From assembly GCA_029851415.1 (NCBI GenBank), contig CM056742.1:82078748-82142747 (forward strand): a stretch of DNA of 64,000 bases, read 5' to 3'. Below, piece after piece: positions 33,801 to 62,503 of the stretch. The first letter of the stretch is position 1. Each line of letters opens with the position of its first letter. The stretch is from Eretmocerus hayati. Its lineage: Eukaryota; Arthropoda; Insecta; Hymenoptera; Aphelinidae. Under the pieces are notes generated by a model. That model saw nothing but the letters and a program-made list of their open reading frames with translations. It had not been told where the DNA came from and made no database searches. A program made the position numbers and the translations under genes.

Positions 33801-34128
33801 CAACATGTTTCAGAATTCGCGTACATCCCGAAAAAATTAGGTAGCGGTGAGTTTGTTATTTTGATTGGTGGGATCGAGAGAGTTTGTTACGGTTTCCTGA
33901 GTTTGTAACTGTCGTGTGAGAAAACGTATTTTTTAGCGTTATGTCAGTAACGCTTGGTGTGTAATGCTTAACGGCTAACATTACACCAAAGCGTTACATT
34001 GTGTATTCTGCTTGGTTATGGCTCGGAGGGGTGTGTTTGTCGGCTACTCTTGTGTTGATTGTGAACCGTGATTTTTTTGCGCGAGCTGTTGGCGTCGGGA
34101 AATTGGAAATCAATTGCTTTGCTGTTTG
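33801..34128 (+). repeat. Left terminal inverted repeat of the 28.7-kb element
   Basis: Pairs with 62,178-62,503. Identity is very high in the outer ~250 bp and fades by 34,130. It contains an internal imperfect palindrome, TAACGCTTGGTG...CACCAAAGCGTTA (33,948-33,996), also present in the right TIR. Confidence 0.85.
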
Positions 34129-34339
34129 CCCTGGTAAAAATTTCGGAGGAATTTCTCACAGAATCTCACGAGTATCGATGGGAAACTGTGAGATATCTTG
34201 AAAAATGTGGATTAAGACCAAAAGAGGAGAGTTTTAATTTCATCCTTAGCAATGCTAACTCACCTCTATTCATAATAAGTTAGAGGATTGGGTTGTTCTT
34301 GAAGCATTCACAGATGGAAAAGGGTAGACGTGAGATTTC

Positions 34340-34558
34340 ATGAGATCTCGTGAGTCTTCGCGAGTTGAGAGTAAGTGAACAATGAGACAGCATGAGATAG
34401 CCTGAGAGCTCGGAGACCGAGCAGAAGTCGCCGATGAGATACTGTGAGATATGAAGAACACGCGTATGGTTAATGTGATTTTTCATAAATGTTGAAGAAG
34501 AATAATCAGCGATCAATGAATCAGGACAATCTGATAAATTAAGTCCCAACGAATCTTG
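34340..34558 (+). repeat. Direct repeat block X, left copy
   Basis: Similar (roughly 80 percent by eye) and in the same orientation to 54,495-54,715. Both contain the hairpin GCTCGGAGACCGAGC and end just before a minisatellite or LTR-like segment. Confidence 0.7.
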
Positions 34559-34579
34559 AGTAACTGCTCGGACAGCATC

Positions 34580-36010
34580 GAAACCTTTCTGAAAACTTTC
34601 AGAAAGCTTTCCGTGAAAGGTTCGAAACCTTTCTGAAAACCTTCCGCGAAAGTTCTCAGAAAGTTAACTATGCCACTTTTGGCTGGACTTTCCGAAAGGT
34701 TTTGGCGAAAGTTGCTGGACATATTTCAGGGAAGATTTCATAAAGGATTTCTGGAAAGATTGCTACAAACACTTCAGGAAACCATTGTGGGAGTTTTCCT
34801 GAAAGAGATTGAGCAATTGTCCTCGAAAAGTTTCTGGAGGGAAGCGAACGAACTGCCACTCAAAACTTTCGCTGGAAGTTTTCTGAAAGGTTTATGAAAG
34901 GTGTCCCTGGAATCGGCCCGCCAAAACTTTCGCTCTAAGGTTTTTGAAAGATTTCCGGTGTCGCTGGAATCGGCTCACCAAACCTTTCGCTGAAAGGTTC
35001 CTAAAAGATTTCCGAAAGGTGTCCCTGGAATCGGCTCACCAAAACTTTCGCTGAAAGGTTTCTGAAAGGTTTCCGAAAGGTGTCCCTGGAATCGGCCCGC
35101 CAAAACTTTTGCTGAAAGGTTTCTGAAAGGGTTCCGAAGGGTGTCCCTGGAATCGACTCGCCAAAACTTTCGCTGAAAGTTTTCTGAAAGGGTTCCGAAG
35201 GGTGTCCCTGGAATCGACTCGCCAAAACTTTTGCTGAAAGGTTTCTGAAAGGGTTCCGAAAGGTGTCGCTGAAATCGGCTCACCAAACCTTTCGCCAAAA
35301 GTTTTCTGAAAGGTTTCCGAAAGGTGTCCCTGGAATCGGCCCGCCAAAACTTTCACTGAAAGGTTTCTGAAAGGTTTCCGAAAGGTATCCCTGGAATTGG
35401 ATCGCCAAAACTTTTGCTTAAAGGTTTCTAAAAGGGTTCCGAAAGGTGTCGCTGAAATCGGTTCACCAAACCTTTCGCTGAAAGGTTTCTGAAAGGGTTC
35501 CGAAAGGTGTCGCTGAAATCGGCTCACCAAACCTTTCGCTGAAAGTTTTCTGAAAGGTTTCCGAAAGGTGTTCCTGAAATCGGCCCGCCAAAACTTTCGC
35601 TGAAAGGTTTCTGAAAGGGTTCCGAAAGGTGTCCCTGGAATCGGCTCGCCAAAACCGCCAAAACTTTCGCTGAAAGGTTTCTGAAAGGTTTCCGAAAGGT
35701 GTCCCTGAAATCGGCCCGCCAAAACTTTCGCTGAAAGTTTCTGAAAGGGTTCCGAAAGGTGTCCCTGGAATCGGCTCGCCAAAACCGCCAAAACTTTCGC
35801 TGAAAGGTTTCTGAAAGGTTTCCGAAAGGTGTCCCTGGAATCGGCTCGCCAAAACTTTTGCCGAAAGGTTTTTGGAAGGGTTCGGGAAGGTGTTACTCGA
35901 ATCGGCCCTCCGAAACTTTCGTTCAAAGGTTTCTGAAAGGTTTACGAAAGGCGCCGCTGGAATCGGTTCCCCTAAACTTTCGCCGAAGGGTTTCTGGAAG
36001 GTTTCGGCGA
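34580..36010. repeat. 61-bp minisatellite, about 20 units
   Basis: Units begin near GTGTCCCTGGAATCGG (34,901; 34,959; 35,019; 35,080; 35,141; 35,202 and on) with 58-61-bp spacing and a GAAAGGTTTC core. Two longer units near 35,640 and 35,760 carry a duplicated CGCCAAAAC. The long minus-strand frames here (for example 35,036-35,926) are a by-product of the repeat. Confidence 0.9.
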
Positions 36011-36060
36011 GTCGTCAGCGAAAGCCGCCCACCAAAACTTTGGCTCACAGAGTTTTGAAC

Positions 36061-37911
36061 GTTATCCAGAAGAAGCCGGCGACTCCTGCTGATCAAAATT
36101 TCCGCTGAAGGTAGTTGCTGCTTTCCAAGACTAACATTAAGACTCTCTGCGAACTTACCGCGGATTTCAAGGAACTCTCCCCACCTATTCACACGAGACT
36201 CCTCGAGTACAGAGTTCCTGAGAGGTATACAAGGGAGCCATCTCTCCATTTTGTCTCTCTCCGGTTGGTTCTGAAAGGTTACTCACAGGAAATGATGCAG
36301 TCGCCATCCCTGAGATCACGTCTGCTGTATGGCAAGGCTCCGACTTGTGGCGGTATGATTGAACTTCTTGACACACTGTATGAGAGTGTACTTTGCGCAT
36401 AGTTCCCCGACTTTTACTCACAGTTTATCAAAGAGAATAGTTCGATACTCGGGATTCAAACCCATTTTTGACGACTTGTATCGAAATGTACTATTTCGAG
36501 TCCCTCCTCTCCTTGAAAAAGCACTGCTCTTCGAGCCTCGACACCAAGGAAGGTAGATTCTCTAGAGAATGAAGGTATTCGATGCAATGTCTACTAGAAA
36601 TTTTCAAACACTCACACAAGATTAAGCTAAGATCTCTTTTTATTCATTATGTACATCAACAACATTTGGAATCGTCCTCCTCCACCTCACTCTCGTCTTC
36701 GCTTTTCTCTGGTTCGATTGGGATGAATGCCTTATTTCTTCGTGGCTGCCCATTCCCCCTACAAAAAATTATTCAACGTTCACCATGACGATACTGAAGG
36801 GACGATCTCTAAAAATTCATTCTATTCATTGAAGTGAGTTGGGTAAGGAATGGAGAACCAAAGTTCCATGTTTGGTAAGATTCGAGAAGAATCTCCACAG
36901 CGCGAGAGATGAAGCCGAGTCACGGCGCGAGTGAAAGAAGCTCCGCAAGAAAGTTATACTAAATCATGTTCCTATGTGGATTCTTTCTTGCCTCCGCTCA
37001 AAAACTGCCCATCGAAAATTCTCTGAAAAACCAATTTGCGGATCGAGACGTGACAGATATTTAGACTGGAATCGATGTGAGAGTACAAGGACAGCCGAGA
37101 CATTATCGAAGTAATATGAGACGGTGTGGAATATGTCTAATGTTCCGTATCACTTCTCACACCTATCCGTGTGAGCACCTTCGATTCTCAAATTGACAGT
37201 AGATGTACGGTACATATTCTAGATTCACTACCAGGATAAAAGCGGCGAGGAAGTCGATGGATAGCTAATGAAAAGGCATTACAAACGTTTAACTTTGAGA
37301 TTATCGAAACTCACTCTTTTCTCTTGGAGGTCCGGTTCTTCGCTTGGTCCAACCATGTTTGTAAAGACTTCTTGATTTTGTCTTGACAAGGATCAGTATG
37401 AGATTGCAGTAGGGCTGCTGTAAGAGAAACAAGATTCTTTGTCAAGTATGAACTAATTCCCGCACAAATTCATTAGATTCCGTTGATAAAATGTCACGAG
37501 ATTGTGCTTCTTGGTCAACTGATGACGACCGTCGAAAGATAAGTAATTCCATGGAGAATCTCTTACGTACCGTAGACGCGAATCACAGTGATGTATCCTT
37601 GAATGCAGATTTACCCGGCTTCCCTTCCTTCTCTTTCGTGCCGTAATAAGAGGAGTTCATGGCAAAGTCGTCTTCCAGACAAGCGTACATCATATTATAT
37701 ACTTAGTGGCTCACCGACAGGCCTCTTAGTGAAATGAAGAATGTTTTCTAGAATGAAACGCCAAATTTGTGTGGCATCCCGCCATCCCGAGGTGCCCCGA
37801 TTACCCAAAGAAGTTGTGAATTGCTGAGTTGCGATTGAGGATTGCTTGTCTTTTGAGTAACCCCTATTTAATTAAGCAATCAGAATTATGAAGACAGGTT
37901 GATTCAGCGCA
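36061..37911. other. Non-coding interval
   Basis: No supported gene, no tandem repeat and no strong inverted repeat seen. Confidence 0.45.
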
Positions 37912-38426
37912 TTGTTGTTGCCGTGCGCGTAACCCACAGTAACTCCGAGTTACGCGCACGGCCAAAAAAACAGGTCAAATTTCATAACCACAAAGCTATA
38001 AAAATTGAGTGTCAACAGCAGTTGATTGATCAGTCTTGAAACGTAACTCTTAAACTCACGCGCAGATTTTACCCAAGTGTTGAGCACGACAAAGTAAATT
38101 TCTAAGTGAGAAACTGAGTCGACTGAATCCCGCCGCGCATCTCCGGCGTCATCCCGAGAACGAGCTAATCAACCTGTCTATCAGCCTCCAGGATATCTTG
38201 ACCCGCAGAGCTAGGAATCCTCGAGTAGAATTTAGTATCAATATAATTGTAAGTCTAAGAAACTCTACCATTCAAGTTTAGTATATTGAATCTATCATTG
38301 TTACCTTTGTATTGTCCAATTCAAAATTAGCATATAAATCGAATTATTCTCAAATCAATATTTATTAATTAAATTGACCTTCTCCGTGATGATTAATATG
38401 CATATTTCCTCTTTCAAAATTTGAAC

Positions 38427-38475
<49 letters not shown>

Positions 38476-38610
38476 CAAAAGCGTATTCATATTCTTGTCT
38501 ACATTTTTGAATAAGGTGAGTGCAACAGGGCAGGCCGCCCTTCAATGTCCAAAAACCCACTCTAAAATAAATATATTTGTTACCCGGACCCATCAGGTCC
38601 GGTCATAACA
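37912..38610 (+). repeat. Probable solo LTR, copy B of the LTR-like family
   Basis: About 700 bp with TG...CA ends, a TATA box (CTATAAAA near 37,994) and a terminal stem-loop (38,584-38,590 with 38,596-38,602) just before the GGTCATAACA end shared with copies at 25,848 and 54,827. A perfect 13-bp-arm hairpin (CCGTGCGCGTAAC and its complement) lies at its start, about 37,920-37,963. A target duplication is not obvious, so the left end is uncertain. Confidence 0.45.
38427..38469. repeat. TA microsatellite inside the LTR-like segment
   Basis: About 20 TA units. Confidence 0.9.
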
Positions 38611-38938
38611 TTTGCATTAACGGAGATACATCGGGAAACCTAGACTCAGTGAAACGAGGCATGTGACGTCTGTCTTCAACCTTTTCAGCATGGATTCATT
38701 TTCGACTCAGAGAACTTTCACTCAAAAAAAGTATACGTCGATAGGATGGAGAATGAACGAAATGCCAAAACTATATTTCAATAGAGAACTTGAATCCTAA
38801 GCAGTTGGGTGATTCTCGAAACCATCAAGATTCTTCCCCCGAATTGAGATTAAAAACCGAGGAAATCCAATGGAACTGTAGATAAATTCACGTAAATATA
38901 GCCATGCTGAAAAAGTGGCCACATGCTCCGTGAGAAGT

Positions 38939-40152
38939 CTATGAATTACTAATTACCAATTTGTTGTAAAATTTAGAATGCTTAAGCATGTCCTCCAAAT
39001 CTTGAAACTTTCCCATAGTTGCTGGTTTGAGGTATTTTTTCACCTTATCATGAGTCAAGTTTACCACTGTGGCAGGTGTAGATCCGAAAGCCTCAACTTT
39101 CTTCTCAAGCTTCCCCACTCTTTTTGACATAGATCCAAGTTTTCTATTCAGTTCACGTAACTGTTCGGTGCAATTTTTGTCTATTTGCTTCAATAACTCT
39201 GTTAGAGTAGGGTAGATTGGATCATTGCATTAGTGGGATGACCTACGAAGGATTAGCGAATCACGAAGAAACACTTACTAAGAACGACGAATTGAAACTT
39301 GTCAGTGGTCATTGAGGTACATTCTTCCGAAACGTTGATATCTTCCAAATTCCCATCTTTTTCTCGAGGATTGTTGCCATCAAGGTTGTGTGCATCACTG
39401 ATATCATCTGTCAAAATGAATTCAACGATGATATTCACATGGAAATGCGGTATGGAGTATTTTTTGTAGGGAAGACAGAAAAAAGGGAAAAATTGCATTC
39501 TGAAGAATCCATCTTTGGAAAACCTACCTCCATTGTCTGAAATTGGAGAGGCACCAGGCGCGGTATCGGTAGCAATCGGTTCTTTTGCATCGTTATTGCA
39601 GGTTTTTGTCAATGACATGCTCAAAGATATTCTGGGAATTTTGACAGCTACTGTTTTCAGAGGTCTAATATCTCCCTCGGAATCGGAAGATTCTGATCCA
39701 CGAGCAGTTGGAGCTTTCTTAGGCCTCGGAGAACTATCAGAGGGAGAAGAAGCTGTGGTCTTTCTTTTGCGATCGTGTCGACTGCTCTTTAATCTCTCAA
39801 CATCGCTCCCATCTGTAATCTCATCTAAATTATTCTTTATCTCGTGGACTGCGGCTAGATACTCATCTACGGAATCGACCAGAACTTATGAGTCGAATCA
39901 AAGTGTATTATGTTTTGGGCGTAGCGAAAGTAAGCAATTACCTTTGTACTTGATGAACTTGGTTAAGGGAAATTCCTTCCAGCCTTCAGCTGGTTTCTTT
40001 TTTTCGATCTTGGCTTTATTGATTTCGGCCGGATCCTCCAAAGGAGGCCAGTACAATGATTTTCCATCTTCAGATAACCAAATGGTAGGAACCACTAATT
40101 TTTGGAATCTCCCATCAACTATTATTGCGTAGTCCTTTTTTTCTTTCTCCAT
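38939..40152 (-). CDS. Four-exon transposon companion protein (DUF4806-like)
   Basis: Exons on the minus strand: 40,152-39,942, 39,866-39,528, 39,407-39,279 and 39,198-38,939. All introns are GT-AG and all three are phase 1; the spliced frame is 312 residues. The N-terminus has a compact beta-rich segment with conserved V-x-x-x-W-L and Y-W-P-P motifs and a P-x-x-x-W-x-x-x-P stretch, as in the small DUF4806-type proteins often found beside animal CACTA-like transposases. The middle is Ser/Lys-rich. The last exon is a heptad-like helix (about 30 residues), then a L-x-x-L helix pair. The real C-terminus might continue through another donor near 38,950. It lies on the same strand as, and downstream of, the transposase. 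Its 5' half is duplicated at 49,449-49,850. Role unknown; a DNA-binding partner of the transposase is my inference. Confidence 0.65.
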
Positions 40153-43100
40153 TGTTAAGAAACAACAGAATAGAAAGATGATGTTTGGAGATTTGTTGGT
40201 GATGATGGATTCATTCACATGATTGTATATGTGTAATTCATCACACACATATTTGTAACTTCATGTCTATAGCAATAGAAATTGGAATCAATACTTGATT
40301 TGATCTAAAATACAGAATTCTACATGTTTTTCGGACAGTACTTCACTCCAATCTGAACTTCGAGCACGATTCGAATGGAAAATTTACATTCTCATATTTT
40401 GTGACAAGAGTGGCGTTTTTGAAATCGATTATTCATTTCACTGGAAACGGTAGAGATTTGAGGTTATGAGAAATGAAACGAATTTAATTGAACTGATGAT
40501 TAATCCCAACGATGAGTGTACCACTACTGCCATACAATAGCGACCTACAACATGTACTTACACTGAGAAAAAAGGAAGTTGGCTTCTAACTATTTCATGA
40601 ACACGACATATTTTTTTCCTCTCAGCGTACAACTAGTTGAGAGATGGAGTCGCCGAGTTCATGCTCTAAGAATTAACAGGAAGTGAACATTATCAATATT
40701 AGAATCATATGGATGAGAATTGGATTCGATCAGGTTAAGGAGATTCAAGGGGTTGAGAAATAACAGGTAGATTTTGATGAGGTTGCAGGGTACATCCATA
40801 ATGATGATATCCGAGCTATATCGAAATTTCAAGACCGGGGGTACCTGTGAGCTGAGCATTCGATTGATGTAATCCGTCAGATTTAACACGGTCGCTCATG
40901 GAATGCACGAATTTTATGAGCTCGTTCGATCATTCAGGGTATGTCCTGACGGCGAGTTTTCGATGAGAGTTCAACATGTGATTGATAAAATAGATATGAA
41001 TCACTCAAGCAAACAAGAAATTGAGTTGGGTACCTATGGGTCTTGGGGTCTTGTATGATTATCAAGTTAACGAAAAATCTTGTGTCATCAACAACACGCT
41101 ATAGCAACACAAGATGAACGTAGGACAAACAGGGAGACCGTGTACGAGTTTGCCGCCATTTATGGCCGAAAGAGACTATATATTCAAAGCTAGTTGACGT
41201 TTTGAAGGGATCATAGCGCTTGAACCTCCTCAACCAGCAGAGCGAGTATGACAGTGGTTTCATTGTACAGGCCCGAACCACCATAGGCTACGAATGGTAG
41301 GTTAGGGTGGGAGTACTCAAGTAGTTTTTCGGAGGATACTGTCGTAATAAAATCAAAAGTAGCGCACTCAGTTATACTTCTACACAGTATACGTTACGCT
41401 ACTAAAGAATGAGTAATAACGAGAATGATTGAGTATGATTGAGTAACTGAGAACAATTGAGTAACAACATTGTTAGTACACTTAAACAATGATAGTCGAC
41501 AAATCGACTCACCCACAGTAGTTCTCAGCATTCGATAACTTAGATTTGCTTACATTGCTGAACACCTTGTATAATTAGCCAACAAGTGATTGTTACGTTG
41601 AAATCTCAACATTTTGGCATCAAAGCAGGTAAGAACTATCGGGTCTATGTTCGAGGAGGTTTAGCTGGTAAAGGATAAACTAAGAGACTTTGATGGGATT
41701 CGGGTCATGCGTTTATCACGATAATGTTGAAGCTAGACTCAAATTCCGGGGCCCGAAGTCACCTGTGAGCTGAGCATTCTATTGATCTATTTCGTCAAAT
41801 TCAACACAGCGCCTCATATGAAGCGCCCTTTCTCTCTGAGCTCCCTCTATCATTTTCAGATGATTGTGTTTTCGATTGAAGTTCAACAAGTGATTGATGA
41901 AATACATATGAACACTCAAGCAAATAGAAGTACACAACCTGTGAGTGTTGAGTTGGAGTCTTGCATTTTTTTACCGTCTCAAAGAAACATTTGGCAAATA
42001 CTAGCAAATTGGAATGAGTATTATTCTGGAATGAGTACTGTGCAATTTGAAGAATTATTAACAAAGAGTTTTTTCATTTTGCGCGAGTAGTTTGACGCCG
42101 GGACGACTCGCACCGAATGACGTAACAGCGATATAGTCGTGGAATTCTCAACAATTTGCGAACGGTCGAGAGAATTTTTGAAAATTTTCTCCCAATTGCA
42201 CAGTACTTGTTTCGTTCTACTCAAATTTGCCAAACCTTTCTTTCGGTGCGGGAGAGGGAGGGGAGGGGCAAGAGAATGCAAAAGGCCAATTATTGTAGAG
42301 TTTAAGGAAGAATGTAGTGCCGGCTCGCGCGTGTCAAGAACATGACTATAGCAGCTGAACCTCCTTAACACAGTTATGAATCACAAGGTATGATTGATGG
42401 GCTGCGATACAAATCCCCCACCGTGAAGAATCTTGAAAATCTTGGCGATAATCTGATCGACCGGATATTCACACATTTCATTAGTTTCAACAACAATATT
42501 TATACCTAATATGCTGCTGCTAAATCCATGGACAGGAAATAGCTCATTCTTTTTCAAACCTTTTTCCCAAATAATGTACAGCACTCTGCCGCTCTTAACA
42601 ATGTTAACTATATTAACTATTGATCCATCCCTGAGCATCACACAATTGTTTCGCTCATCCTCTATGTCCAAACGCCAACAATTTTTTTCTAAAATCCTAT
42701 ATTGTTCATCAATCTTGATAGTTTGAGATATAATACCACTTTCATGAGGTCTACTTGGAACAATTTCATCATCAGTCAGGACAGTTTGACTCTTCAGTTC
42801 TGTTAACCTATCATATTCTGCAAGTCTCCTATCCAACTGTTCCAAAGTTTTCTCTTCCTTTCGGATCAACTTTTCTAAGAAGCATGGAAAGCTCTCATAC
42901 GGATAGGCCCCGAACATTTCGAGAGAGCCGTGTCTCAGAGCATCTCTGGCTATGTGCACTGCACCGTGAATACCATGAGTGACGTTCTCTTCTCCATAGA
43001 TTTTTTCATACGTGTAAACAAAATTCATCAAGAATTTCTCAGCGTACTGAACATTAGATACATCCGCAACGAGTTTTGGGCTAGATAAAATGTACACGGC

Positions 43101-43291
43101 AACATGCAGCCTGAGAAAATTTCGAAAAGCATCGCGATCGAGAACATCCTTGAATATAGGAGCACCTGCGTAAAGCACTATAATCCTCCATTGGGTCGCT
43201 TTGGACTTCTTCCAAAATTTGAAGGAATTGAATCTTTAGTTGAATTGTGAAGGCAAAGCATTCTTAAGATTTCCAAATATCTGACTCACGG
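39751..43291. repeat. Left arm of 3.54-kb inverted duplication
   Basis: Reverse complement of 46,308-49,850. Paired positions sum to about 89,600 throughout, so the arms contain almost no net indels. Several 60-76-residue frames are identical between arms, giving an estimated identity of 97 percent or more. The outer boundary cuts the companion gene in exon 2, and the inner boundary cuts the transposase frame near residue 557. Confidence 0.95.
41988..42240. mobile_element. Foldback MITE, copy 1
   Basis: Ends are inverted copies of TTTGGCAAAT(T/A)CGAGC-like sequence. The centre carries a CRE-like TGACGTAA and a TTGCGC...GACG motif. Same family at 44,829, 47,360 and 51,424. Confidence 0.6.
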
Positions 43292-44960
43292 TCTCTATTT
43301 GCTTAGCAGTCAATTTGCCTTTCTTACTTTTAGAACCTTCGATCCAGAGATGGAACAGTTGCTTGTGATTACTCAAATGATTCAAATGCATAGGATCCAT
43401 CACTATCTGTGTAATTGGTTTGATACGTGCTGAATTCAGAAGGAGAGTTGGCCCTCCTCGGTACGTACCAAGATAGGCATAATTTTTGAAGTCTTCATCA
43501 TTCCTCAAATTCTTGTAACAATAATTTTCCAAGTTTTCCGAACTAAAAGAGGGGTAGCAGAAATAGCCGTAGTGAGTACCTTCAATCCAACATTTACTGC
43601 AGGCGAAGTAACCAGGGGGGGGGGGGTATTTTGTATTCAAAATGAAAGATTTGGCTGGACCATCCAGAGAAAAATGAGCAATCTCTAGCTTGATATCAAG
43701 ACCATCACTTTTGAAACCGTTGTCCATTATCTGCGATGCTCCTTCAACGAACATCTTCAAGAATTCATCACGACTGGGTTTCGTACAACCATGATTGACT
43801 CCTATAGGGAAAACACTCCTATAATACAGAATTCCGCATAAAATTGCCCAGCAGAGATATTCTGAAGAGTTGCCATTCAAAGTGGCTCCATCAATGTTGA
43901 TGCCTAACTTGATCGTATCGAATTGCTGCCCGAAGATGAGCTTGGCTCTAACAATTTTATGCAAAGCGTTTAAAACTCCCATGTGGCAATAATGACCCCC
44001 TCCGATTTCGATCACGTTTGAAGATTGAGGTGTTTTGAGAAGAGTACTAGAATCTCTGGGGAATTTAGCATCCGTGTGTTTGTTCAGAACGCGCAACAAG
44101 GATCGCAAAGCTTTATGATTTATGAAATGAATGATAGCCCACTCCAAAATATCATTATGGAATTCAAGCACTTCTCCGTTGGCAGAAATTTCTCGCCGAT
44201 CAGGAAGAGGATGAGCGAAATCCCTATTGACTCCAGAATCAGGATTAGGATCGTTTGGATTAACATCAATATCAATATTGCTATCGCTATCATTCTCGCT
44301 ATTACTATCACTACCGCCATCTGTTTCACCACCGCCATCACTCTGATCGCCTTCATATTCAATCCCAGCCTCGCCGTTATCAGCGTGATCAACATGACCG
44401 TCGTTTGGAGATAATGGTAATGATGGTGGTGGTGACGATAACGTTAATGCTGATCGTGAGACGATTCCCGTGTCCTGAGCTAAGAACTTTCCGCCTGAAA
44501 GCTGGTCATGATTGGCACCGGGTTCCCGTAGCTCATCATGTGACGAAGCTATTCCCTTTCGTAGGTTTGACCATTCTTTGATGATTTCCTTAAAATCATG
44601 ATCAGATTGCAATGTAGACAAGCGGCGCACATGTCTTTTGCTCTGGGGTTCTAAGCCTTCTCGCAATCTGGGCATGCTGAACAATGGATCAGTGAGTGTA
44701 CCTGACACTCTGCTGTGGCGCTTTAGAACTCCAAAGTGACTGCCTAGAGGGAAGAACAGGAAACTATCAGTTACTGATGACAGAAATGTTTCAATTGGGG
44801 TCCTGCATTTGTCAACCCTCTCAAAAAGAGGTTTGGCAAATTCGAGCAAATCGAGATAAGTATTGTACAACTGGAGAAAAAAATTCCCAAAAATTTCTTC
44901 GACCGTGCGCTGATTGTTTGAAAGTCTACGACTGTATTTCTGTGACGTCACACGGTGCAA
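42381..44960 (-). CDS. CACTA/EnSpm-like transposase, interrupted by one nonsense codon
   Basis: Open from 44,960 to a TAA at 43,238-43,236, then in the same frame to 42,381. Residues about 268-330 hold the E-W-A...L-L...L-P-x-D-x-x-T-L-L-x-T block. Candidate catalytic acids are D357 (I-N-I-D-G), D433 (S-L-D-G-P-A-K) and D522 (M-D-P-M-H-L), with a C-x2-C pair at 454/457. After the stop come L-H-V-A-V-x-I-L-S-S-P-K and H-G-x-V-H-I-A-x-D, typical of the family. An acidic Asp/Ser stretch lies at 190-245. The first ~72 codons overlap a foldback MITE and are probably not coding; a good acceptor (CCCTCTAG) ends at 44,744, leaving phase 1 as in the companion gene. The mirrored copy has CAA where this one has TAA, so the stop is a simple C-to-T change. 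Confidence 0.75.
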
Positions 44961-45063
44961 GTCGTCCTGAAGTCAAACAATTTGCGCAAGGTGAAAAAAA
45001 TTTTTGATAATTTTTTTCCAATCGCACAATACTTTTCTTGATCCGCTCGGATTTGCCAAACCT
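44829..45063. mobile_element. Foldback MITE, copy 2
   Basis: Inverted ends GTTTGGCAAATTCGAGC / CCGCTCGGATTTGCCAAAC and a central TGACGTCA palindrome near 44,942. It overlaps the 5' end of the long transposase frame. A partial further copy (half element with TGACGTCA) follows at about 45,110-45,250. Confidence 0.65.
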
Positions 45064-50664: not shown

Positions 50665-51270
50665 GTTGTCAGCTATAGGAAATCCAAAAAGAGGAATCGA
50701 TAGAGAAAAAACTCCTCCAACAGAATCTTTGAGAAGAAAAACACCTTCACCTCTCAAGTTTTTAATACTAATGATAAACATGCTGGGATCAAGCACTCCA
50801 GTATTCCTTCTCTACTCCACGTGGAGACATGTTTGAGGTATGGAAATACTCGCCTTGGTAAAAGGAAATATAGGTCTCCTCGGAAAACTCTTGTTCTCTA
50901 TTAGTTTTTCCGCACTTGGAACTATTGTTCATTAGCATGAAAGTCCAGATCACTCCTTGTCTTACGCGACGCCCACGCGTGACTTACATAAGACAGATGC
51001 GGTTATCTGGATTTCCATATTGATGAACAATAGTACTAAGTGCGGAAAAACTAACAGAAAGCAAGAGTTTTCTGAGGAGACGGATATTTCTTTCGAGGCG
51101 AGTATTTCTATACCACAAAAAAGTTTCCACGTGCAGTAGAGGAGGAGTACTGGAAAGCTCAAACTCAGCATTTTTATCATTAGTATTGAAGAATTGAAGG
51201 GTGGAGGTGTTTTCTCTTATTGAGGTTTCTGTTTTTTCTCTGTCGATTCCTTTTTTTGGATTTCCTATTG
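50665..51270. repeat. ~270-bp diverged inverted repeat
   Basis: 50,665-50,935 and 51,008-51,270 are inverted copies (about 80 percent by eye). They share stretches around AGGAAATCCAAAAA and TAGTTTTTCCGCACTT, separated by about 70 bp. Frames here (for example 50,984-51,277) are by-products. Confidence 0.7.
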
Positions 51271-51423
51271 CTGACAAACCAAATCTTCTGCCTGATCAAC
51301 GTTCGACACTAAAGTAGCTATGGCAGCAGTGGCAGCGGCGCTGTAGACCGACGTATGCGGTCTTCGTTCATAGGACTTGGAAGTTCCATAGGGTCTTGGA
51401 TTTTCTTCGACCCTCTCAGGAAA

Positions 51424-51652
51424 AGGTTTGGCGAATGTGAGCGAACTCAAATAAGTATTGTGCAATGAGGGAGAAATTTCTAGAAAAATTTTTCATCTTG
51501 CGCAAATTGTTGAACGTCGGGATAACTTGCAGAGCGTGACGTTACAGCTATACAGTCATTTCGAACAACTTGCGCACAATCAAGGAACTTTTTGGGATTC
51601 TTTACCAACTGCAAAATATTTGTCTCGATTCGCTCGAATTTGCCAAGCCTTT
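51424..51652. mobile_element. Foldback MITE, copy 4
   Basis: Inverted ends GGTTTGGCGAATGTGAGCG and CGCTCGAATTTGCCAAGCC, centre GTGACGTTACAG near 51,536. Confidence 0.65.
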
Positions 51653-51813
51653 TTTTGGGGAGGGGGGAGGGATGCAAAAGGCCAATAAAAACTCTCACCA
51701 AAATGTTTCTGCAAGGTTTAAGGAAGTTTTTCGAAGAGTTTTCAGACATTTGGCATGTAAAGTTTTGTAAAAGGTTTTCGAAAGTTTCCTTAAAGGAATT
51801 TTTCATGGAAGGA

Positions 51814-51946
51814 TGTACACTTGGGAGCAGTCTGAACTGTCCACACTGCAGCCAACTTGAAAATCACTCTCCCATGCTATTAACATAGGAGATGAGCCAT
51901 TAAGTTGGCTGCAGTGTGGACAGTTCAGACTGCTCCCAAGTGTACA
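51814..51946. repeat. Perfect 45-bp-arm hairpin
   Basis: 51,814-51,858 and 51,902-51,946 are exact reverse complements with a 43-bp loop. The right arm overlaps a second inverted pair, 51,941-51,969 with 52,083-52,111 (two or three mismatches). Confidence 0.9.
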
Positions 51947-52129
51947 TTCCCCAGGAAGGTGGACTGCACAGCTGTGACGGTCAGAGTAGCCTTCGGAATT
52001 TTCTGTCTCACTCACACTCATAGATTATGGTACGAGCGCGAATGAGACATGAGATCTCGAATGGTAAGTGACCGTCATACTTGTGCAGTTCACCTTCCTG
52101 GGGAGTGTACGATGAGTTCTATGAGAACT

Positions 52130-53760
52130 ATCCCCGGAAGGCTTTTGAAAGGTTTCGGGAAGTAATCCGAAAAGTTCTCGGATTCTCGTCAGGGCGGAGT
52201 TTTGTGAAAGGTTTCAGGAAACCTTCTTGAGAATTTTCACTGGAAGGATCTGGACATTCCATTGGAACTTCCACCGAGAGGCTTCTGGGAGGTTCCAGAA
52301 AGGTTTTCAGGAAGTTTTCGGACACTTGTTGAAGGGAAGTTTTGTGAAAGGTTCCCGAAAGCTTTCTGAGAGCTTTCACCAAAACTATTGGTGCAAGGAT
52401 CTGAAAGTTTCATGAGAATTTCCACCGAAAGGCTTCTGAAAGATTACAGGAAAGTTTTCGGAAAGTTTTCGGACACTTGTCGAAGGAAAGTTTTGTGGAA
52501 GGTTCCCGAAAACTTTCTGAAAGTTTTTACCAAAATTTTCAGTGCAAGGACCTGAAAGTTCCATTGGAACTTCCACCGAAAGGCTTCTGAAAGGTTTCAG
52601 AAAAGTTTTCGGAAAGTTCCCGGCCACTTGTCGAAGGAAAATTTTGTGAAAGGTTCCCGAAAGCTTTCTGGAAGTTCTTACCAGAATTCTTAGTGCAAGG
52701 ACCTGAAAGTTCCATTGGGACTTTTCCCGAAAGGCTTCTGAAAGGTTTCAGAAACGTTTTCGGACACTTGTCGAGGAAAAGTTTTGTGAAAGGTTCCCGA
52801 AAGTTTTCATCAAACTGCTAGTGCAAGGACCTGGAAGTTCCATTGGAACTTTGACCGCAAGGCTTCTGAAAGGTATCAGAAAGGTTATCGAAAAGTGTTC
52901 GGACACTTGTCGAAGGAAAGTTTTGTGAGAGGTTCCCGTGAGCTTTCTGAGAGCTTTCACCGAAACTATTGGTGCAAGGACCTGGAAGTTTCATGAGAAC
53001 GCCCACCGAAGAGCTTCTGAGAGGTTTCAGAAAAGTTTTCGGAAAGTTTCCGGACACTTGTCGAAGGAAAGTTTCGTGGAAGGTTCCCGGAAGCTTTCTG
53101 AAAGTTTTCACCAGAATTCTCAGTGCAAGGACCTGATAGTTCCAATGGAACTTTCACCGCAAAGCTTCTGAAAGGTATTAGAAAGGTTATCGGAAAGTTT
53201 TCGGACACTTGTCGGAGGAAAGTTTTGTGAAAGGTTCCCGAAAGCTTTCTGAGAGCTTTCACCAAAACTATTGGTGCAAGGACCTGAAAGTTTCATGAGA
53301 ACTTCCACCGAAAGGCTTCTGAAAGGTTTCAGAAAAGTTTCCGGAAAGTTTTTGGCCACTTGTCGAAGGACAGTTTTGTGAAAGGTTCCCGAAAGCTTTC
53401 TGAAAGTTCTTACCAAAATTTTCCGTGCAAGGACCTGAAAGTTTCATTGGAACTTCCACCGAAAGGTTTCTGAAAGGTTTCAGAAAGGTTTTCAGAAAGT
53501 TTTCGGATCCTTGGCTAGGAAACATTTAGTGAAAGGTTTTGGGAAACATTCCTCAAAGCTACCATCGAAAGTTTCACTGCAAGGATGGGAAAATTCTGAT
53601 GGTCCTTGCGCTGAAAGGCTCCAGAAAGGTTTCAGAGAGGTTTCTTCGAATCCTGCCCCATGAAAGGACAAAGGAATCATTGTGAAAGCTTCCAGAAACC
53701 TGTTGGGAAGCTTTCCACGAAAGCTTTCCGTGAAAGTTTCTGTGAAACCTTTCAGTGCTG
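52130..53760. repeat. ~151-bp minisatellite, about 10 units
   Basis: The landmark G(A/C)CACTTGT recurs at 52321, 52472, 52623, 52763, 52902, 53053, 53203 and 53355 (spacing 139-152). Units are built from GAAAGGTTTC/GAAAGCTTTC blocks like those of the 61-bp array at 34,580-36,010. Confidence 0.9.
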
Positions 53761-53774
53761 TCTGGGTGAGTACT

Positions 53775-54826
53775 CTTTAGGAACTTGTGAGGAATTGTGA
53801 GATCCTCTGAAGACATCTCGTGAACTTTAACTCATGTTCCATCTAAACTCATGATACCAGTCAGTGCATCATAGGGATGATGAGTCGAGAATTACACGCA
53901 AAAGTATCCTTAGAGCAGCGTAATGAGGTGATCTCAGATTCTATGAGGTACCTGAATTCTACAGTAATTCTATCACGTCAATGAGTGGCCATGAGATATG
54001 ATGATAAGCAGCTATGCAATTCAAATATGAACCACCGCAAAGTAACATGAGATACTTGTCCGTTGTTAGTTTGTAGGAGTTACCGTGAGACCTCATTATT
54101 ATCTGTTGGACGCGAGGTACATACTGCGGCGATACTAGAAATATCATGAGATCAACTGACATGAGTAAGTTATTATGAAATATTGTGAGGGTTAGAATTT
54201 GTTGGAAATCCTTTGGAGATGAGATATTACGAGATACCAGGAATGGTGTTTGGATTTCATTTCCCATGAGTCACAATGAGATATAATATTGATTATCAAC
54301 TTCATCTTGATATAAAAAATTTCAGAGAGGTATCACATCCCATTTCACGAGTGCCGGTGAGAAATTATCAGATATCTTGAGAAAATGTCAATTCCGGCCA
54401 AAAATAAAGATCAATATCTCATATTTTGCGATACCTGATTTGCCGTTATTCGTGAAAAGATATGAGCTTGAATTTTCGGAGCATTTGAAGATAAGAAGTG
54501 GAGACGTGAGAATTCGTAAGAATTGAGGCAGAGTGACTGATGAGGAAGCGCGAAATTGCCTGAGGGCTCGGAGACCGAGCGAAAGTCGCCGATGAGATAC
54601 TGTGGGATATGAAGAGACACGCGTATGGTCAATGCGATATTTTCTTAATATTAAAGGAATATGATCAGCGATCAATGAATCTAGACCAATCGATAAATTT
54701 TGTCTTGACGAATCTCAACTAACTGACCACTCTCCAGGAACTCGTGGGAAATTGTGAGATCCTCTGAAGACATCTCGTGAACATCAACTTATGCATCATT
54801 ACAACTTATAATACCAGTCAGTGCAT
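53775..54826. repeat. ~90-bp direct repeat pair about 960 bp apart
   Basis: 53,775-53,870 and 54,735-54,826 share GAGATCCTCTGAAGACATCTCGTGAAC-like sequence and ATACCAGTCAGTGCAT. The second copy is cut at GTGCAT by the LTR-like copy C. Confidence 0.8.
54495..54715 (+). repeat. Direct repeat block X, right copy
   Basis: Counterpart of 34,340-34,558. Same orientation, including GCTCGGAGACCGAGC and CAGCGATCAATGAATC. Confidence 0.7.
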
Positions 54827-54950
54827 TGTTACGACCCGAGCTGAGGGCTCGGGCTAACAGATAAATTATTTGTTCGCTGGAAACAGCATCAAGGGCGGAC
54901 TGCCCAGTTGCACCTACCTATTCTTTATTATCCAGTTGGGTCGTCCTCTG
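54827..54950 (-). repeat. LTR-like terminus, copy C
   Basis: Begins TGTTACGACC (reverse of the common end) followed by the stem CCCGAG (54,835-54,840) / CTCGGG (54,848-54,853), and shares the GGGCGGACTGCCC motif with copy A. The far end of this copy lies somewhere before 55,400 but is unclear. Confidence 0.5.
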
Positions 54951-55429: not shown

Positions 55430-58400
55430 ACATGAGCACCGTTTGCGTGTCCGAAGAGCTGGAGGGTCAGTGAGGAGCACATGGAGAAGTCGGTGATGAG
55501 CAAGTGATTGAAGTCTATTTTCTGAGATTGCTGCAGAACAATGATGCTCAGTGATGAGTGGAATTGTTGCTCTTTTCGATCATCCGAACTATCGAGGATC
55601 TTCGTGCATCGACATCAAGATTAAGGGGAAGAATATCATGTTCTCAATTGCGAGATACTGCATTTGATGTGGTCACAACCGTCCCTAAATTCAGAGTTTG
55701 AATCGAGGAAGTACGAGTTCTGCAATAACGCAGATCAAAGCAATTCATTATCATGTGAATTACTCATCATTCAAATCCACGGAGAGATCTGTGCATTGCC
55801 GCCAAGTGCCAGGGGTCCATAATGCATTTTCATTCAGACTATGCACCTACGACGATTACGAGTATTCTTGGAATCGTACTGTAGTCTAGTTTCTGACGTC
55901 GTTGGGAAATATTAGTACTCAGTGATGAGTCCGATGGTTGCTCTCTCACATGATTCGAACTGTTAGGGAGCTCTATGCATTGTTTCAATATTAAAGAGAT
56001 GACTTATGGGTCCCTGAATCACGCTATCCTCAATTCAACACGAGCACAACTGATGCAAAATTCAGAGTTCGAATCGAGGTTTCGCGGGTCCTGCAATCGA
56101 GAGAATCATAGCAATTCATTGTCATGTGAATCACTCATCATTTGAGCCCACGGAGAGGTCTGTGCATTGCCGCCAGGGCCCGGGGATCCATATTACATTT
56201 TTATTCACAGGACCATGCACCCATGACGACTACGAGTATTCTTGGATTCGTATTGTAGTCTTGTTTTTGGTATCGTTGCGAAACAACGATGCTCAAAGAT
56301 GAATCGAATCGTTGCTATTATCCACCTGTCAAACTGTTAGAGAGCTTTGTGCATTGATGTCGAGATCAAGCAAGAAAATATCATGTATTCAATTCAGAGA
56401 TTCTGCATTGGATACGGTCACAAGCGATTCAGGATTCAGAAATTGGATCAACTTTTCGCGAGTTCTGCAATAACACGGATCATAGCAATTTATTATCATG
56501 CAAATTACTCATCTTTTGAGCCCACTGAAAGATCTGTGCATGGACGCCAAGGCCCAGGGGTCCATAATACATTTTCATTCAGACTTATGCACCTATGACG
56601 ATTACGAGTATTCTTGGAATCGTACTGTAGTCTAGTTCCTGACATCGCTGGGAAACATTGATGCTCAGTGATGAGTGGAATAATGGCTCTCCTTCATTAT
56701 TCGGACTGTCGAAGAGCTCTGTGCATTGGCCTCGGGTCCGAGGAAAAAATTTTATGTTTTCAATCGCGCGATTTTGCATCCAATATGGTCACATACGATC
56801 CAGAATTCAGTGTTTAAATCAAGGTTCCGCGTATTCTGCAATGATGCGGATTATAACAATTCGTCATCATGTGGAAAACCCATCATTTAAGCCCACGGAG
56901 CGATCTGTGCATTGCAAGGCTCAGGGATCCATATTATATCTTTATTTGCAAGACTGTGCACCTATAACGATGACGAGTATCTTGGACTAGTATCGTAGTC
57001 TTGTTTCTGAGATCGCTGCAAAACAACGATGCTCAGTGATGAGTTGCATGATTGCTCTTCCCCATCATTCGAACTGTCAGAGAGAGAGGTACATTGGCAT
57101 TAGGAACAAGGGGAAAAATATCATGTTTTCAATTGCGAGATTCTGCATCCAACACGGTCACAACTGACCGAAGTTCAGAGAATGAATCGGGGTTCCGCGA
57201 GTTCTGCGATGATATGAATCATAGCAATCCATAACCATATCAATTACTCATCATTTGAGCCCACGGAGAGATCTGTGCATTGCCGCCAAGGCTCAGGGAT
57301 CCATAATACATTTCCAAGTACGAAGGTACCTTTTGCGTGCGCGAACAGCTAAAGGGTCTGCGTAGACCGCATTTGCTCACGCTAACTCGGGAAGCAAAAT
57401 ACTCAAACGGTGGGTACACGAAACACTATTAGGCGTGCGGGGAAAATTTCGCGTACGCGTAAACATTGCAAGGCAACTTGCCGAAAATCTCGCGTGAGCA
57501 AGGAGAGCACACTTTCGCGTACGCAAAGACTTTCCGTTTCTGCGTACGCGACTATGACGTGGAATTCGCTGTATCTTCAATCCAAAGTAAGGGGGTACCC
57601 TTCGCGTGCGAACAGCTAGCGGGTCTGCGTAGACCGTATTCGCTTACGCTAACACGAAAAGCAGAAGACCCAATTGTTGGGTACACGAAACACTATTACG
57701 CGTTCGCGGAAAATTTCGCGTACGCGGAAACATTGCAAGGCACTGTTCTGGAAATCTTGCGTGAGCGAGGAGAGCACACTTTCACGTACGCGAAGACTTT
57801 CCGTTCCCACGTACGCGACAACGGGGTTGGATGCGCTCTCACTCCAATACGAAGTACATGTGCACCGTTTGCGTGTACAAACAGCTGGAGGGTCAGTAAG
57901 AAGCCCATGGAAAAGTCAGTGATGAGCGAGTGATTGAAGCCTATTTTCTGAGATTGCTGCAGAACAACGATGCTCAGTGATGCCCAGGCAATCAGACTAT
58001 GCACCTATGACGATCACGAGTATTCTTGGAATCGTATTGTAGTCTAGTTTCTGACGTCGTTGGGGAATATTGATACTCAGTGATGAGTCTGATGATTGCT
58101 TTCTCACATCATTCAATCTGTCAAGGAGCTCTGTGCATTGTTTCGATATCAGAGAGATAGTTAACGGATCCCTGAATCACGCTATCCTGCATCCAACACG
58201 ATCACAACCGATGCAAAATTCAGAAATCGAATCGAGGTTTTGCGGGTTCTGCAATCGTGAGAATCATAGCAATTTGTTGTCATGTGAATCGCTCAACATT
58301 TGAGCCCACGGAGAGGTCTGAGCATTGCCGCCATGGCCCGGGGATCCAATTTACCGTTTTATTCACAAGACTATGCACCTAGGACGATCACGAGTATTCT

Positions 58401-60440
58401 TGAATTCGTGTTGTAGTCTTGTTCCTGATATCGCTGCAAAACAACGATGCTCAGTGATAAGTCAAAGAGTTGCTATTTCCCACCTGTCATACTGCTAGAG
58501 AGCTTCATGCATCGGCATCAAGATCAAGGAAGGAAATATCATGCATTCAATTCAGAGATTCTGCATTCGATACAGTCACAACCGGTTCGAAATTCAGAGT
58601 TTGAATCGGGGGTTCGCGAGTCCTGCAATGATAGGGATCATAGCAATCAATCATCATGTAAATTTCTCATCATTTGTGCCCTTGAGGCGATCTGTGCATT
58701 GCCGCCAAGGCCCAGGAGTCCATAATACATTCTCGTTCAGACTATGCACCTATGACGATCATGAGTATTCTTGGAATCGTATTGTAGTCTAGTTTCTAAC
58801 GTCGTTGGGGAATACTGATACTCGGTGATGGGTCTGATGATAGCTCTTTCGCGTCATTCGAACTATCAAGGAGCTCTGTGCATTGTTTCGATATCAAACA
58901 GATGAATGATGGGTCCCTGAATCACGCTTTCCTGCATCCAACACGATCACAACCGATGCAAAATTCAGAATTCGAATCGAGGTTTCGCGAGTTCTGCAAT
59001 CATGAGAATCATAGCAATTTATTGTCATGTGTATTACTCATCATTTGAGCATTTGAGCCCACGGAGAGATCTGTGCATTGCCGCCAGAGCCCGGGGATCT
59101 GTATTACATTTTTATTCACAAGATCATGCACCTGTGACGACCACGAGTATTCTTGAATTCATATTGTAGTCTTGTTCCTGATATCGCTGCAAAACAACGA
59201 TGCTCAGTGATAAGTCAAAGAGTTGCTATTCCCCACCTGTCATACTGCTAGAGAGCTTCATGCATCGGCATCAAGATCAAGGAAGGAAATATCATGCATT
59301 CAATTCAGAGATTCTGCATTCGATACAGTCACAACCGGTCCGAAATTCAGAGTTTGAATCGGGGGTTCGCGAGTCCTGCAATGATAGGGATCATAGCAAT
59401 CAATCATCATGTAAATTTCTCATCATTTGTGCCCTTGAGGCGATCTGTGCATTGCCGCCAAGGCCCAGGAGTCCATAATACATTCTCGTTCAGACTATGC
59501 ACCTATGACGATCATGAGTATTCTTGGAATCGTATTGTAGTCTAGTTTCTAACGTCGTTGGGGAATACTGATACTCGGTGATGGGTCTGATGATAGCTCT
59601 TTCGCGTCATTCGAACTATCAAGGAGCTCTGTGCATTGTTTCGATATCAAACAGATGAATGATGGGTCCCTGAATCACGCTTTCCTGCATCCAACACGAT
59701 CACAACCGATGCAAAATTCAGAATTCGAATCGAGGTTTCGCGAGTTCTGCAATCATGAGAATCATAGCAATTTATTGTCATGTGTATTACTCATCATTTG
59801 AGCATTTGAGCCCACGGAGAGATCTGTGCATTGCCGCCAGAGCCCGGGGATCTGTATTACATTTTTATTCACAAGTTCATGCACCTGTGACGACCACGAG
59901 TATTCTTGAATTCATATTGTAGTCTTGTTCCTGATATCGCTGCAAAACAACGATGCTCAGTGATGAGTCAGAGATTTGCTATTCCTCACCTGTGATACTG
60001 GTAGAGAGGTTGGTGCATTGTGATCGGGATCAAGGGGAAGAACATCATGTTTGCAATTGCGAGATTCTGCATTCGATACGGTCACAACCCATCCAAAATT
60101 CAGAGTTTGAATCAAGCTGCGCGAAATTTGCAATAATACGATCCCAAGCAATTCGTTATGATATCAACCACTCATCATTCAAGCCCACAGAGAGATCCGT
60201 GCATTGCCACCAAGGCCAGAGATTCCATGTTACTTTCCCATTCACAAGACTATGCACCTATGACGATCACGAGTTGTCTCAGAATCGTTGTTGAAATCTA
60301 GTTTTTGAGATCACTGCAAACTAATGATGCTCAGTGGTGAGTTGCATCTCTTCTCACCATTGATTTGAGCCCCCGAAGAGCTCTGAGCACTGCCTTCGAG
60401 ATCCAGGGAAAGAATCTCGTTTCCAATAATTATACTTCGC
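55430..60440. repeat. ~375-bp tandem array with 753-bp dimer duplication
   Basis: A landmark near GATGCTCAGTGATGAG recurs at about 55539, 55909, 56283, 56656, 57032, 58065, 58441, 58814, 59195, 59568, 59947 and 60321 (370-381 bp apart except across an insertion). Two monomer types alternate. The dimers starting at 58,441 and 59,195 are almost identical, showing recent amplification. Short plus-strand frames repeated here are by-products. Confidence 0.85.
57319..57900. repeat. ~270-bp CpG-rich repeat interrupting the 375-bp array
   Basis: Two full units (57,319 and 57,589) and the start of a third (57,859), rich in the palindrome CGCGTACGCG. The third flank also matches the left start of the array at 55,415-55,550. 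Confidence 0.75.
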
Positions 60441-62177
60441 TCACGCAAAAGTACGAGACATGCGGCAAATGAGTTGAGGGTGCAAAACTTTCGCATGACC
60501 AAAAATTCCCCAATTCGTGCACGCGAAAGTTCATAACTCCGGGAAGTGTTGGATTTTCGTGTGCCATCGCTAGTTGCACGCGAAGATCCGAAACTCGGAG
60601 CAGGTCACTCGAGGCCGGAAATTTTTCCGAGTGCGCGGTAATCCAAAATTCGGCCCGAACGAGTTCAGGTTGGGCAGATTTCGTGTGCGCGAAGATTTTT
60701 CACTTCAGCACGCAAAAGTTCGAAACTCGTGGCAGTCGAGCTTGGATTGATATCTTTCGCGTACGCGAAAATTACTCTTATAGCGCGCGCAAAATTTGAA
60801 ATTACCTCGACAGACAAGTTAGAGAACGGAAACTCTCGCATGCGCGGGGAAGAAAGTCGCCCGCGCACATGGAAATTTCCCCCCCTTCTACAGATACTTT
60901 GTCAGCTTCTCAATCATATGATTACGAATAGAAGGTCTCTTTCTTCCCATGTAGGAAATTCCGCGTACGCGAAAGAAGCTTCTCGCGGGCGCCACAGTGG
61001 ATATCGTTACGCGTGGAGTAACAATCCTCGATATTTCACAGGGAGACGAATCTTTAAAGTTCCCACAACGAGACTTTATGTTGGAGAAAGAGCCCCGAAG
61101 TTTATCAAGAGATAAAGTGAAAGAGTCATTTCACGCTGTCTACATAGAAACAATCATAGCGTGAACCATCATCTCCGTTCATGCGGATTACCCAAAAGAT
61201 GATCTGGACTGCGCAAAGGGAAAACGAACACCCGATAAATTGTCGAAATTAGCATACGCGAGCATGAACTAAAATTTTATGGTTGACGCTGAGATTGCTG
61301 TCGTGCATGAGCGAGTTAGACCATAGCGTTCGCGAGGCTCATGTTGAAAGGGAAAGAAGAAGAAACGGGATCAGGACAATTTCTTGCAAACGCGATGGTT
61401 CAGTAATTCAGCGCGCGCGAAAATCGATGTGACGTATCGTACGATTTATCGCGTACGCGAAACCCAACTCCATTGACTCACCTCAGCAGTACCAATCTCT
61501 GGCACTTAAATAGAGGATCACTGCCGGAACTCCAAATCAGGTCGATTGAATCGGCTAATCCCCAAGCCTAAGTAAAGAAATGAGGCATGACCTTTTACGA
61601 GCAAAAGGGTCACTTGGAGAACTTAAGATAGCTCGATCTGCATTGAGTCCGCTACCTCGTCTGCACTGAGCCTCAGCAAACGACAGCTCAAGCCACGCAT
61701 CACAGCAGAAAATAAACATTCCTAACGATGCAATTTGACAGGAATGCTCCTTGACCGACGAGAAAAAGTGAACACAACACAAACACGTGGCATCATTTCG
61801 CACAAATTGGTCGCGGGCCATGCAATTGATGCACCGAAAACATGGCCCGCAGCAGACACATCGCATCATCTGTACTGCGTTATCTGCGACGAGATATCTG
61901 CTACGATACGGCATGCCGACCTTCTGCTGCAGCGGCCAAGGCCAAGGCCACGGTTGTTTGTTTGTCGGCTCTCGCCACGCATGCCACATAACATTATTCC
62001 ACACACCTTATTATTTAACAACACTCTCCGCGACTCCCACAACACGAAAATTCGAACTCGAACGCACAAAGCACTGCGTCGTTGCCTCTGCAGAAGTGCT
62101 CATGATATTATGCAATGCCGCTGCCACCGCACCCGCCGAAGACACAGCTCTCACAAAAACGCGAACGTCCCAACACG
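60440..62177. other. CpG-rich right subterminal region
   Basis: No supported gene; frames at 61,555-62,310 are open on both strands and look compositional. It contains several TTCGCGTACGCGAA-type palindromes (60,757; 60,961; 61,449). Confidence 0.5.
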
Positions 62178-62503
62178 CACAGCACACCAATTAATTTTCA
62201 ATTTTCTGACGCCAACAGCTCGCGCTAAAAAATCAGGGTTCACAATCAACACAAAAGCAGCCGACAAACACACCCCTCCGTGCCATAACCAAGCAGAATA
62301 CACAATGTAACGCTTTGGTGCAATGCTAGCCGTTAAGCATTACACACCAAGCGTTCCTGACATAACGCTAAAAAATACGTTCTTCCACACGACAGTCACA
62401 AACTCAGGAAACCGTAACAAACTCTCTCGATCTCACCAATCGAAATAACAAACTCACCGCTACCTAATTTTTTCGGGGTGTACGCGAATTCTGAAACATG
62501 TTG
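62178..62503 (-). repeat. Right terminal inverted repeat of the 28.7-kb element
   Basis: Reverse complement of 33,801-34,128. Followed by the TA target duplicate (62,504-62,505). Confidence 0.85.

Follow-up and report, generated by a model that had tools for sequence, protein, structure and literature searches.

A 28.7-kb insertion in a Copia gag of Eretmocerus hayati resolves into one transposon nested within another

How can an insertion of nearly 29 kb carry a CACTA-like transposase between ends that do not look like CACTA ends? This question is raised by a locus of the aphelinid Eretmocerus hayati (Hymenoptera), studied here in a window of 64,000 nucleotides (positions 82,078,748 to 82,142,747 of the 192-Mb contig CM056742.1, in the 692-Mb assembly GCA_029851415.1; positions below are those of the window). 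An initial annotation had described the insertion, which splits the gag gene of a Copia element, as a single giant transposon with terminal inverted repeats (TIRs). Three layers are very probably present instead: the Copia element, a non-autonomous outer element with TIRs, about 9.5 kb long, and, nested in the latter, a CMC-type transposon of 19.2 kb, hereafter the nest. The single element could thus not be maintained, since 19,200 of its 28,703 bp form a second transposon with other ends. Nor could the assignment of the CACTA-like transposase to the outer element: its sequence relations place it in the nest, and the puzzle of such a transposase between non-CACTA ends disappears.

The limits of the outer insertion (33801–62503, 28,703 bp between the two TA copies) are set by the gene that it interrupts, as had been proposed. 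Dropping one TA puts the gag codons 33798–33800 and 62506–62508 in one frame, and the resulting joint is aligned without a gap in all ten homologous gags found. Uninterrupted Copia copies of the same genome give a second comparison: the joined 400-bp flank matches across the joint, with 89–93% identity, in all 40 copies scored among 68 candidates, the target length being equal to the query length in 35 of them and off by one to four bases in the other five. Because both the gag homologs and the Copia copies run uninterrupted across the joint, the insertion site and its TA duplication stand. A stop codon interrupts the gag frame 3' of the joint as well, which indicates that this Copia copy decayed apart from the insertion.

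The inverted repeats of about 325 bp, flanked by TA, that had been noticed at both ends were recovered as well, with 93.9% identity over 329 columns (33798–34125 and 62506–62179). With up to three mismatches, the terminal 25-mer is found at only two places in the window, none being expected. The ends start with CAACATG (CAAC..GTTG) and, as first described, read neither CACTA nor CACTG. Mavericks/Polintons, another class to be considered for a large TIR element, are recognized by a protein-primed polymerase, an integrase and a capsid. The longest frame between the ends has 578 codons, and a Pfam scan of 20 distinct frames, out of 130 of at least 55 residues lying outside the arrays, matched none of these three hallmarks, in keeping with their initially reported absence.

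Inside these ends, the segment 34567–53766 is a separate transposon with its own ends, its own target duplication and its own empty site. Its flanks read ...AACTG| and |TGAGTA... and, when joined with one TG, align to the array unit at 54584–54860 without any gap within 100 bases of the joint. The inner ends, the TG and this empty site thus delimit the nest and leave 9,503 bp to the outer element, in which no transposase was seen. Three relatives elsewhere in the genome, X (fetched stretches L073 and L069), Y (L074 and L070) and V (L076 and L077, minus 5 kb between them), are colinear with the window from 34571 onward. All three share the 61-bp array and the adjoining stretch beyond it; X and Y also have the second gene and the transposase, and V matches the window regions 45.3–46.3 and 49.8–53.7 kb. 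These relatives begin abruptly at TA|CCCAGACAGCATCGAAACCTTTC, with left flanks that differ among them, and their terminus, CCCAGACAGC, directly follows the TA. The window start at 34567 is this same terminus with two mismatches, its inverted counterpart lying at 53766. The right ends of V and Y read CCCAGACAGCACTG, again with TA, which gives lengths by end coordinates of 18,605 and 15,836 bp, respectively; no right end was found for X. Genome-wide, the nested left terminus occurs at 149 places with up to three mismatches (0 and 1 for the controls), and seven of the nine top transposase matches have the CCCAGACAGC terminus at 6–13 kb, in the right orientation.

These observations make it very improbable that the whole insertion is one autonomous CMC transposon with CAACATG ends, or one bearing the gene block as captured cargo. 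The transposase does lie between the outer ends, and the CMCT clade, according to passages of PMC12730594, permits CA..TG ends and 2-bp target duplications. However, a single element is already refuted by the inner ends, which lie precisely at 34567 and 53766 and have their own duplication and empty site, unless the inner junctions were misassembled. The relatives moreover hold the gene block behind the inner ends, and no other compared outer pair contains a listed transposase: 47 of the 53 transposase rows (the other six, fragments of genes in the list, were omitted) were set against 43 pairs derived from 143 of the 215 outer ends described below, and only the two places belonging to the window itself lie inside a pair. 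An assembly artefact joining two unrelated junctions might be feared in a region so rich in repeats, with its tandem arrays and 3.5-kb inverted duplication, but it is scarcely credible: closing the outer junctions gives back the gag gene exactly, closing the inner ones does the same for an array unit, and these ends are met again at independent loci on the four large contigs.

The transposase is, judging from its relatives, the nest's own and not that of the outer element, because relatives elsewhere carry it behind the CCCAGACAGC end and not behind CAACATG ends. It is 27–35% identical to five homologs, two of which are named by source (Camponotus floridanus and Bemisia tabaci). Seven residues, D361, D437, C458, C461, H669, H673 and E693, are invariant in all six aligned proteins, and we read D361, D437 and E693 as the catalytic ones. 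The C458/C461 and H669/H673 pairs fall between D437 and E693, as do the C(2)C and H(3–4)H motifs of the CMCT clade. DUF4218 matches the protein below the cut-off (E 0.016 and 0.01; 0.00044 for an intact relative), and the predicted structure model, with a mean predicted local distance difference test score (pLDDT) of 46.7, is too poor for comparison with the RNase H-like transposase fold. No Pfam family reaches its cut-off with the probable second gene; a candidate, DUF4806, found no support in Pfam and was dropped.

The nonsense codon 579 lies between C461 and H669, so that H669, H673 and E693 come after it. At the place of the 3.5-kb inverted duplicate, V has a different sequence of 1.86 kb. 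With this stop and this duplication, the nested copy of the window is broken. Many genomic relatives of its transposase are found, at 26–49% identity among the 53 scored of 1154 candidates, and stop-free ones are located at C2:150.41, C1:146.43, C2:58.42 and C3:86.27 Mb. A group of seven relatives at 49%, with equal or near-equal scores, was also observed, each with a single TGA (C2:171274060, C2:49362301, C2:166029352, C4:114857175, C1:13527158, C2:60767797 and C3:107191357). Perhaps one mutation was spread by a master copy, or the TGA reflects a small intron or read-through.

Comparison with known systems helps to place the nest. The passages of PMC12730594 on the CMCT clade (Kojima) describe CA..TG ends in most cases, target duplications of 2–5 bp, and the C(2)C and H(3–4)H motifs, and report that ESTA, found in fungi, uses a TA duplication. 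The nested transposase has the same D, D, C(2)C, H(3)H, E order as these CMC/CMCT enzymes (EnSpm/CACTA, Mirage, Chapaev, ESTA, Lanisha). Its target duplication, TG in the window and TA on either side of V and Y, falls within the 2–5 bp range, the TA of Y and V being like that of fungal ESTA. The canonical EnSpm/CACTA signature, CACTA/CACTG termini with a 3-bp duplication, is absent. The CCCAG..CTGGG ends are unlike the usual CA..TG, which the wording “in most cases” of these passages does not exclude. The family is further distinguished from the CMCT examples by its size of 15.8–19.2 kb with arrays inside the ends, and by source-named homologs that come from insects.

The outer element belongs to a large family. 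Its TIR was found in at least 40 copies at 93–100% identity (40 scored of 350 candidates), and its 26-base terminus, TA included, at 105 + 110 = 215 places with up to three mismatches, against 0 for the reversed control. The TA flanks that had been expected for its copies were seen at 39 of the 40 fetched TIR ends, the remaining one being preceded by AG; two of these ends come from the window itself, and L043 and L045 have the same flank. The base before the TA is A in 31 of the 40. The flank in common to L043 (C3 92.34 Mb, plus strand) and L045 (C3 65.59 Mb, minus strand) is the same 25 bases in opposite orientation, 27 Mb apart, perhaps owing to a duplicated or inverted segment. Adjacent ends form 43 pairs of less than 50 kb, with lengths of 0.76–43.5 kb, including two size classes at 0.76–0.86 kb (8/43) and 10.7–10.9 kb (7/43).

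Twelve copies were read whole, namely that of the window and 11 others: eight pairs of 5,549–26,087 bp with TA on both sides in every case, one copy of the 10.9-kb class, and the pairs L079 (4.05 kb) and L080 (5.57 kb). Among the matches listed, both ends of the eight pairs and of the 10.9-kb copy match the right end of the window's element over 0.85–3.0 kb. These nine copies are palindromic, with first arm blocks of 0.85–2.9 kb that are 94–99.6% identical, and tandem arrays (267/269-bp, 371-bp and others) fill 12–48% of each. A foldback architecture, with long TIRs, internal tandem repeats and a non-coding middle, is thus seen in nine of the 11 other copies; the 4.05- and 5.57-kb ones have the TIR in common and a less regular build. 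Copies of 18.2, 25.6 and 26.1 kb are 99.0–99.7% alike over their main blocks, from which it follows that the family moved recently. It is best read as a recently active, TA-targeting, non-autonomous foldback family. In the 26.1-kb copy, a middle stretch of about 6 kb has no counterpart in close relatives, and nesting may add to the size of the 18–26 kb copies too. In another copy, L050, the arm alignment runs beyond the ends into both flanks (127–299 and 6783–6945), so that its insertion site seems to have been the middle of a palindrome. Within the nest, a stretch that is itself palindromic (50641–51277, 78% identical to its own reverse complement) recurs at 4973–5644 of L080, near the right end of that outer-family copy, and perhaps represents a further small foldback family.

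A countable motif links the ends of the family to its arrays. The outer parts of the window contain 10 sites of TTCGCGTAC, a motif that belongs to the terminal 25 bases (mean of the shuffles, 0.03); the nest and the flanks contain none. The nine palindromic copies have 12–38 sites each, with shuffle means below 0.4 (first-order resampling, 100 shuffles each), and X, Y and those parts of V that were fetched gave no site. The nearest architecture is that of Tetris from Drosophila virilis, which has, in the passages of PMC4079207, long inverted arms, internal tandem repeats and no transposase found, all features of the outer family. The arm repeats of Tetris are proposed there to multiply binding sites, and those of Galileo, as cited in the same source, hold extra transposase-binding sites. 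By analogy, the TTCGCGTAC repeats are putative transposase-binding sites. The outer family differs from Tetris, as described in these passages, by its 2-bp TA duplication instead of one of 8–10 bp, and by copies that reach 26 kb here; Tetris is tentatively assigned to Mutator there, and Galileo to the P superfamily. Among literature titles and the opening parts of abstracts, no TA-duplicating foldback family with satellite arms was found, which is weak evidence.

Which enzyme moves the outer family? No transposase of its own was seen in the 12 copies read whole, frames of 203–242 residues in three of them not having been searched. When the nested transposase, the second gene and the homologs were compared by tblastn with the fetched outer loci, the only matches were those of the Copia gag flanks to gag homologs; in particular, neither nested gene had a relative in the nine palindromic copies, L079 or L080. 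The viral contig collection gave 0 exact matches to the 25-mer and no relative of the transposase, and the sequence search against solved structures gave two weak matches, neither of them meaningful. L080 has no frame of 200 residues. Two candidates were rejected. The first is a 682-residue DDE_Tnp_4 protein in the 25.6-kb copy, which is enclosed by separate 1.17-kb arms with another terminus (AGGACCCCGCC...) and is probably part of another nest. The second is the 575-residue protein of L079, which sits within a CACTG-ended element (about 667–3906, ends CACTGCTCGAC) with a 3-bp duplication, TAA; the outer TIR itself is its empty site, and ends, duplication and empty site were read by eye. Like the nest, this element lies inside an outer-family copy; it differs from it by its 3-bp duplication and by its protein, for which BLASTP against the window's transposase gave nothing significant (best E 5.6).

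It is possible, with confidence that stays short of even, that a CMC transposase related to the nested one, of the same clade and acting on different ends, moves the outer family. The CAAC..GTTG ends and TA duplication agree with the CA..TG and 2–5 bp rule given for the CMCT clade in passages of PMC12730594, which is not diagnostic alone, and the genome is rich in such relatives. None of the compared relatives outside the window lies within an outer pair, however, and the TTCGCGTAC motif is lacking in X, Y and the stretches of V covered, as mentioned above. A transposase of the Tc1/mariner type, or another TA-targeting one such as an ISL2EU/PHIS-like enzyme, is a rather doubtful candidate. Both Tc1/mariner-type and ISL2EU/PHIS-like transposases target TA, and the near-strict TA at the outer ends, often preceded by A, would suit them, as would the DDE_Tnp_4 protein found within one outer copy. 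The TA targeting of PHISTA is also treated in passages of PMC12730594. Against this stand the separate arms that enclose the DDE_Tnp_4 protein and the fact that no other long transposase-like frame was seen in the whole copies, within the limits given above for their shorter frames.

Several points weigh against the three-layer reading and the mobilization that it implies. The outer copy of the window is no palindrome: beyond about 325 bp its two sides differ, the arrays lie on the right side, and it therefore lacks the long TIRs of a foldback element. The left interior, from 34127, recurs elsewhere in the genome, at least 34 kb from the outer ends compared. For this reason the left arm has probably been replaced, and the left and right sides of the window were no longer taken for the two true ends of an autonomous element. 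An autonomous outer copy was not encountered, and mobilization in trans is what we infer; with 143 of 215 outer ends paired and 53 of 1154 transposase candidates scored, such a copy may be among the rest. On the side of the nest, the duplication is TG in the window, whereas it is TA in Y and V; two of the nine top transposase matches have no CCCAGACAGC terminus among the 100 places listed out of 149; and one loose match to the outer end (up to 5 of 19 mismatches) was obtained in L078, near Y, in a search that covered seven fetched stretches of X, Y and V.

The three-layer reading suggests the following course of events. The outer transposon would first have cut into the Copia gag at a TA, which was duplicated, its family being moved by cut-and-paste in trans through a transposase encoded elsewhere; the extra TTCGCGTAC copies may act as additional binding sites for this enzyme, as in Galileo. 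The CMC-type transposon would then have cut into an array unit within the outer element, with duplication of the TG, bringing the transposase and the second gene; it is later than the outer element because it sits inside it. The nest would finally have decayed through the nonsense codon ahead of the catalytic E and the 3.5-kb inverted duplication.

Such nesting is an ordinary event, but it involves two unusual families. An apparent giant single element is removed by this analysis, and nesting is seen to be able to imitate one. The outer family links transposon ends to satellite arrays, and the nested one points to an ability of CMC-type transposases to work with CCCAG ends and a TA duplication. 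A more speculative proposal, which we consider rather unlikely, is that the outer family represents a new TA-targeting lineage of giant foldback elements, in which satellites multiply the end motif and for which the enzyme is not yet found; a TA-targeting enzyme would then be behind the birth and spread of satellites in this genome. The features of the locus are collected in Table 1.

Table 1. Features of the Copia element, the outer transposon and the nest in the window.
Feature	Position	Strand	Conservation
Copia gag, 5' part (MKVIENKEEM...AMNYI)	33600–33800	+	homologous gags and own-genome Copia copies
TA, outer target duplication, left copy	33799–33800
Outer left TIR (CAACATGTTTCAGAATTCGCGTACA...)	33801–34125	+
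Outer left interior, unit of TGAGAT-rich array, resumes at 53769	34127–34566	+
TG, nested target duplication, left copy	34565–34566
Nested CMC/CACTA-like transposon, 19,200 bp, ends CTCGGACAGCATCGAAACC (left) and CCCAGACAGCACTGAAAGG (right, inverted)	34567–53766	-
61-bp tandem array inside left end of nest, about 18.6 copies	34861–36005		matched in relatives X, Y, Z, V
Probable second gene of nest, exon-like pieces 39901–40260, 39256–39885, 38942–39229	38942–40260	-	conserved in X, Y
Nested transposase, 863 codons, in-frame TAA at codon 579 (43236–43238)	42381–44972	-
Inverted duplicate of 39751–43291 (98.1%), with truncated transposase	46308–49850	+
151/302-bp tandem array inside right end of nest	52232–53538
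TG, nested target duplication, right copy	53767–53768
371-bp satellite array of outer element, 4.9 copies	55512–57313
267-bp repeats of outer element, with TTCGCGTAC sites	57325–57819
Outer right subterminal region	60350–62178	-	found at both ends, as long inverted arms, in nine relatives
Outer right TIR	62179–62503	-
TA, outer target duplication, right copy	62504–62505
Copia gag, same frame resumed (YGEISNEQ...), one in-frame stop just before 62575	62506–62883	+

Two repeats of the outer element extend beyond the limits listed: a unit similar to the TGAGAT-rich one lies at 54315–54725, with others elsewhere in the genome, and copies related to the 371-bp satellite are found further along, at 57992–60342.

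Other features are present in the left part of the window. A Ty3/gypsy-like retroelement occupies 13207–21836 on the minus strand (RVT_1, 2e-29; reverse transcriptase RNase H, 1.2e-25; a weak Ty3 capsid match). On the plus strand, a frame at 568–2325 has JmjC (3.8e-7) and C2H2 zinc-finger matches, and another one at 11634–12941 has Sina-type RING and zinc-finger matches below cut-offs.

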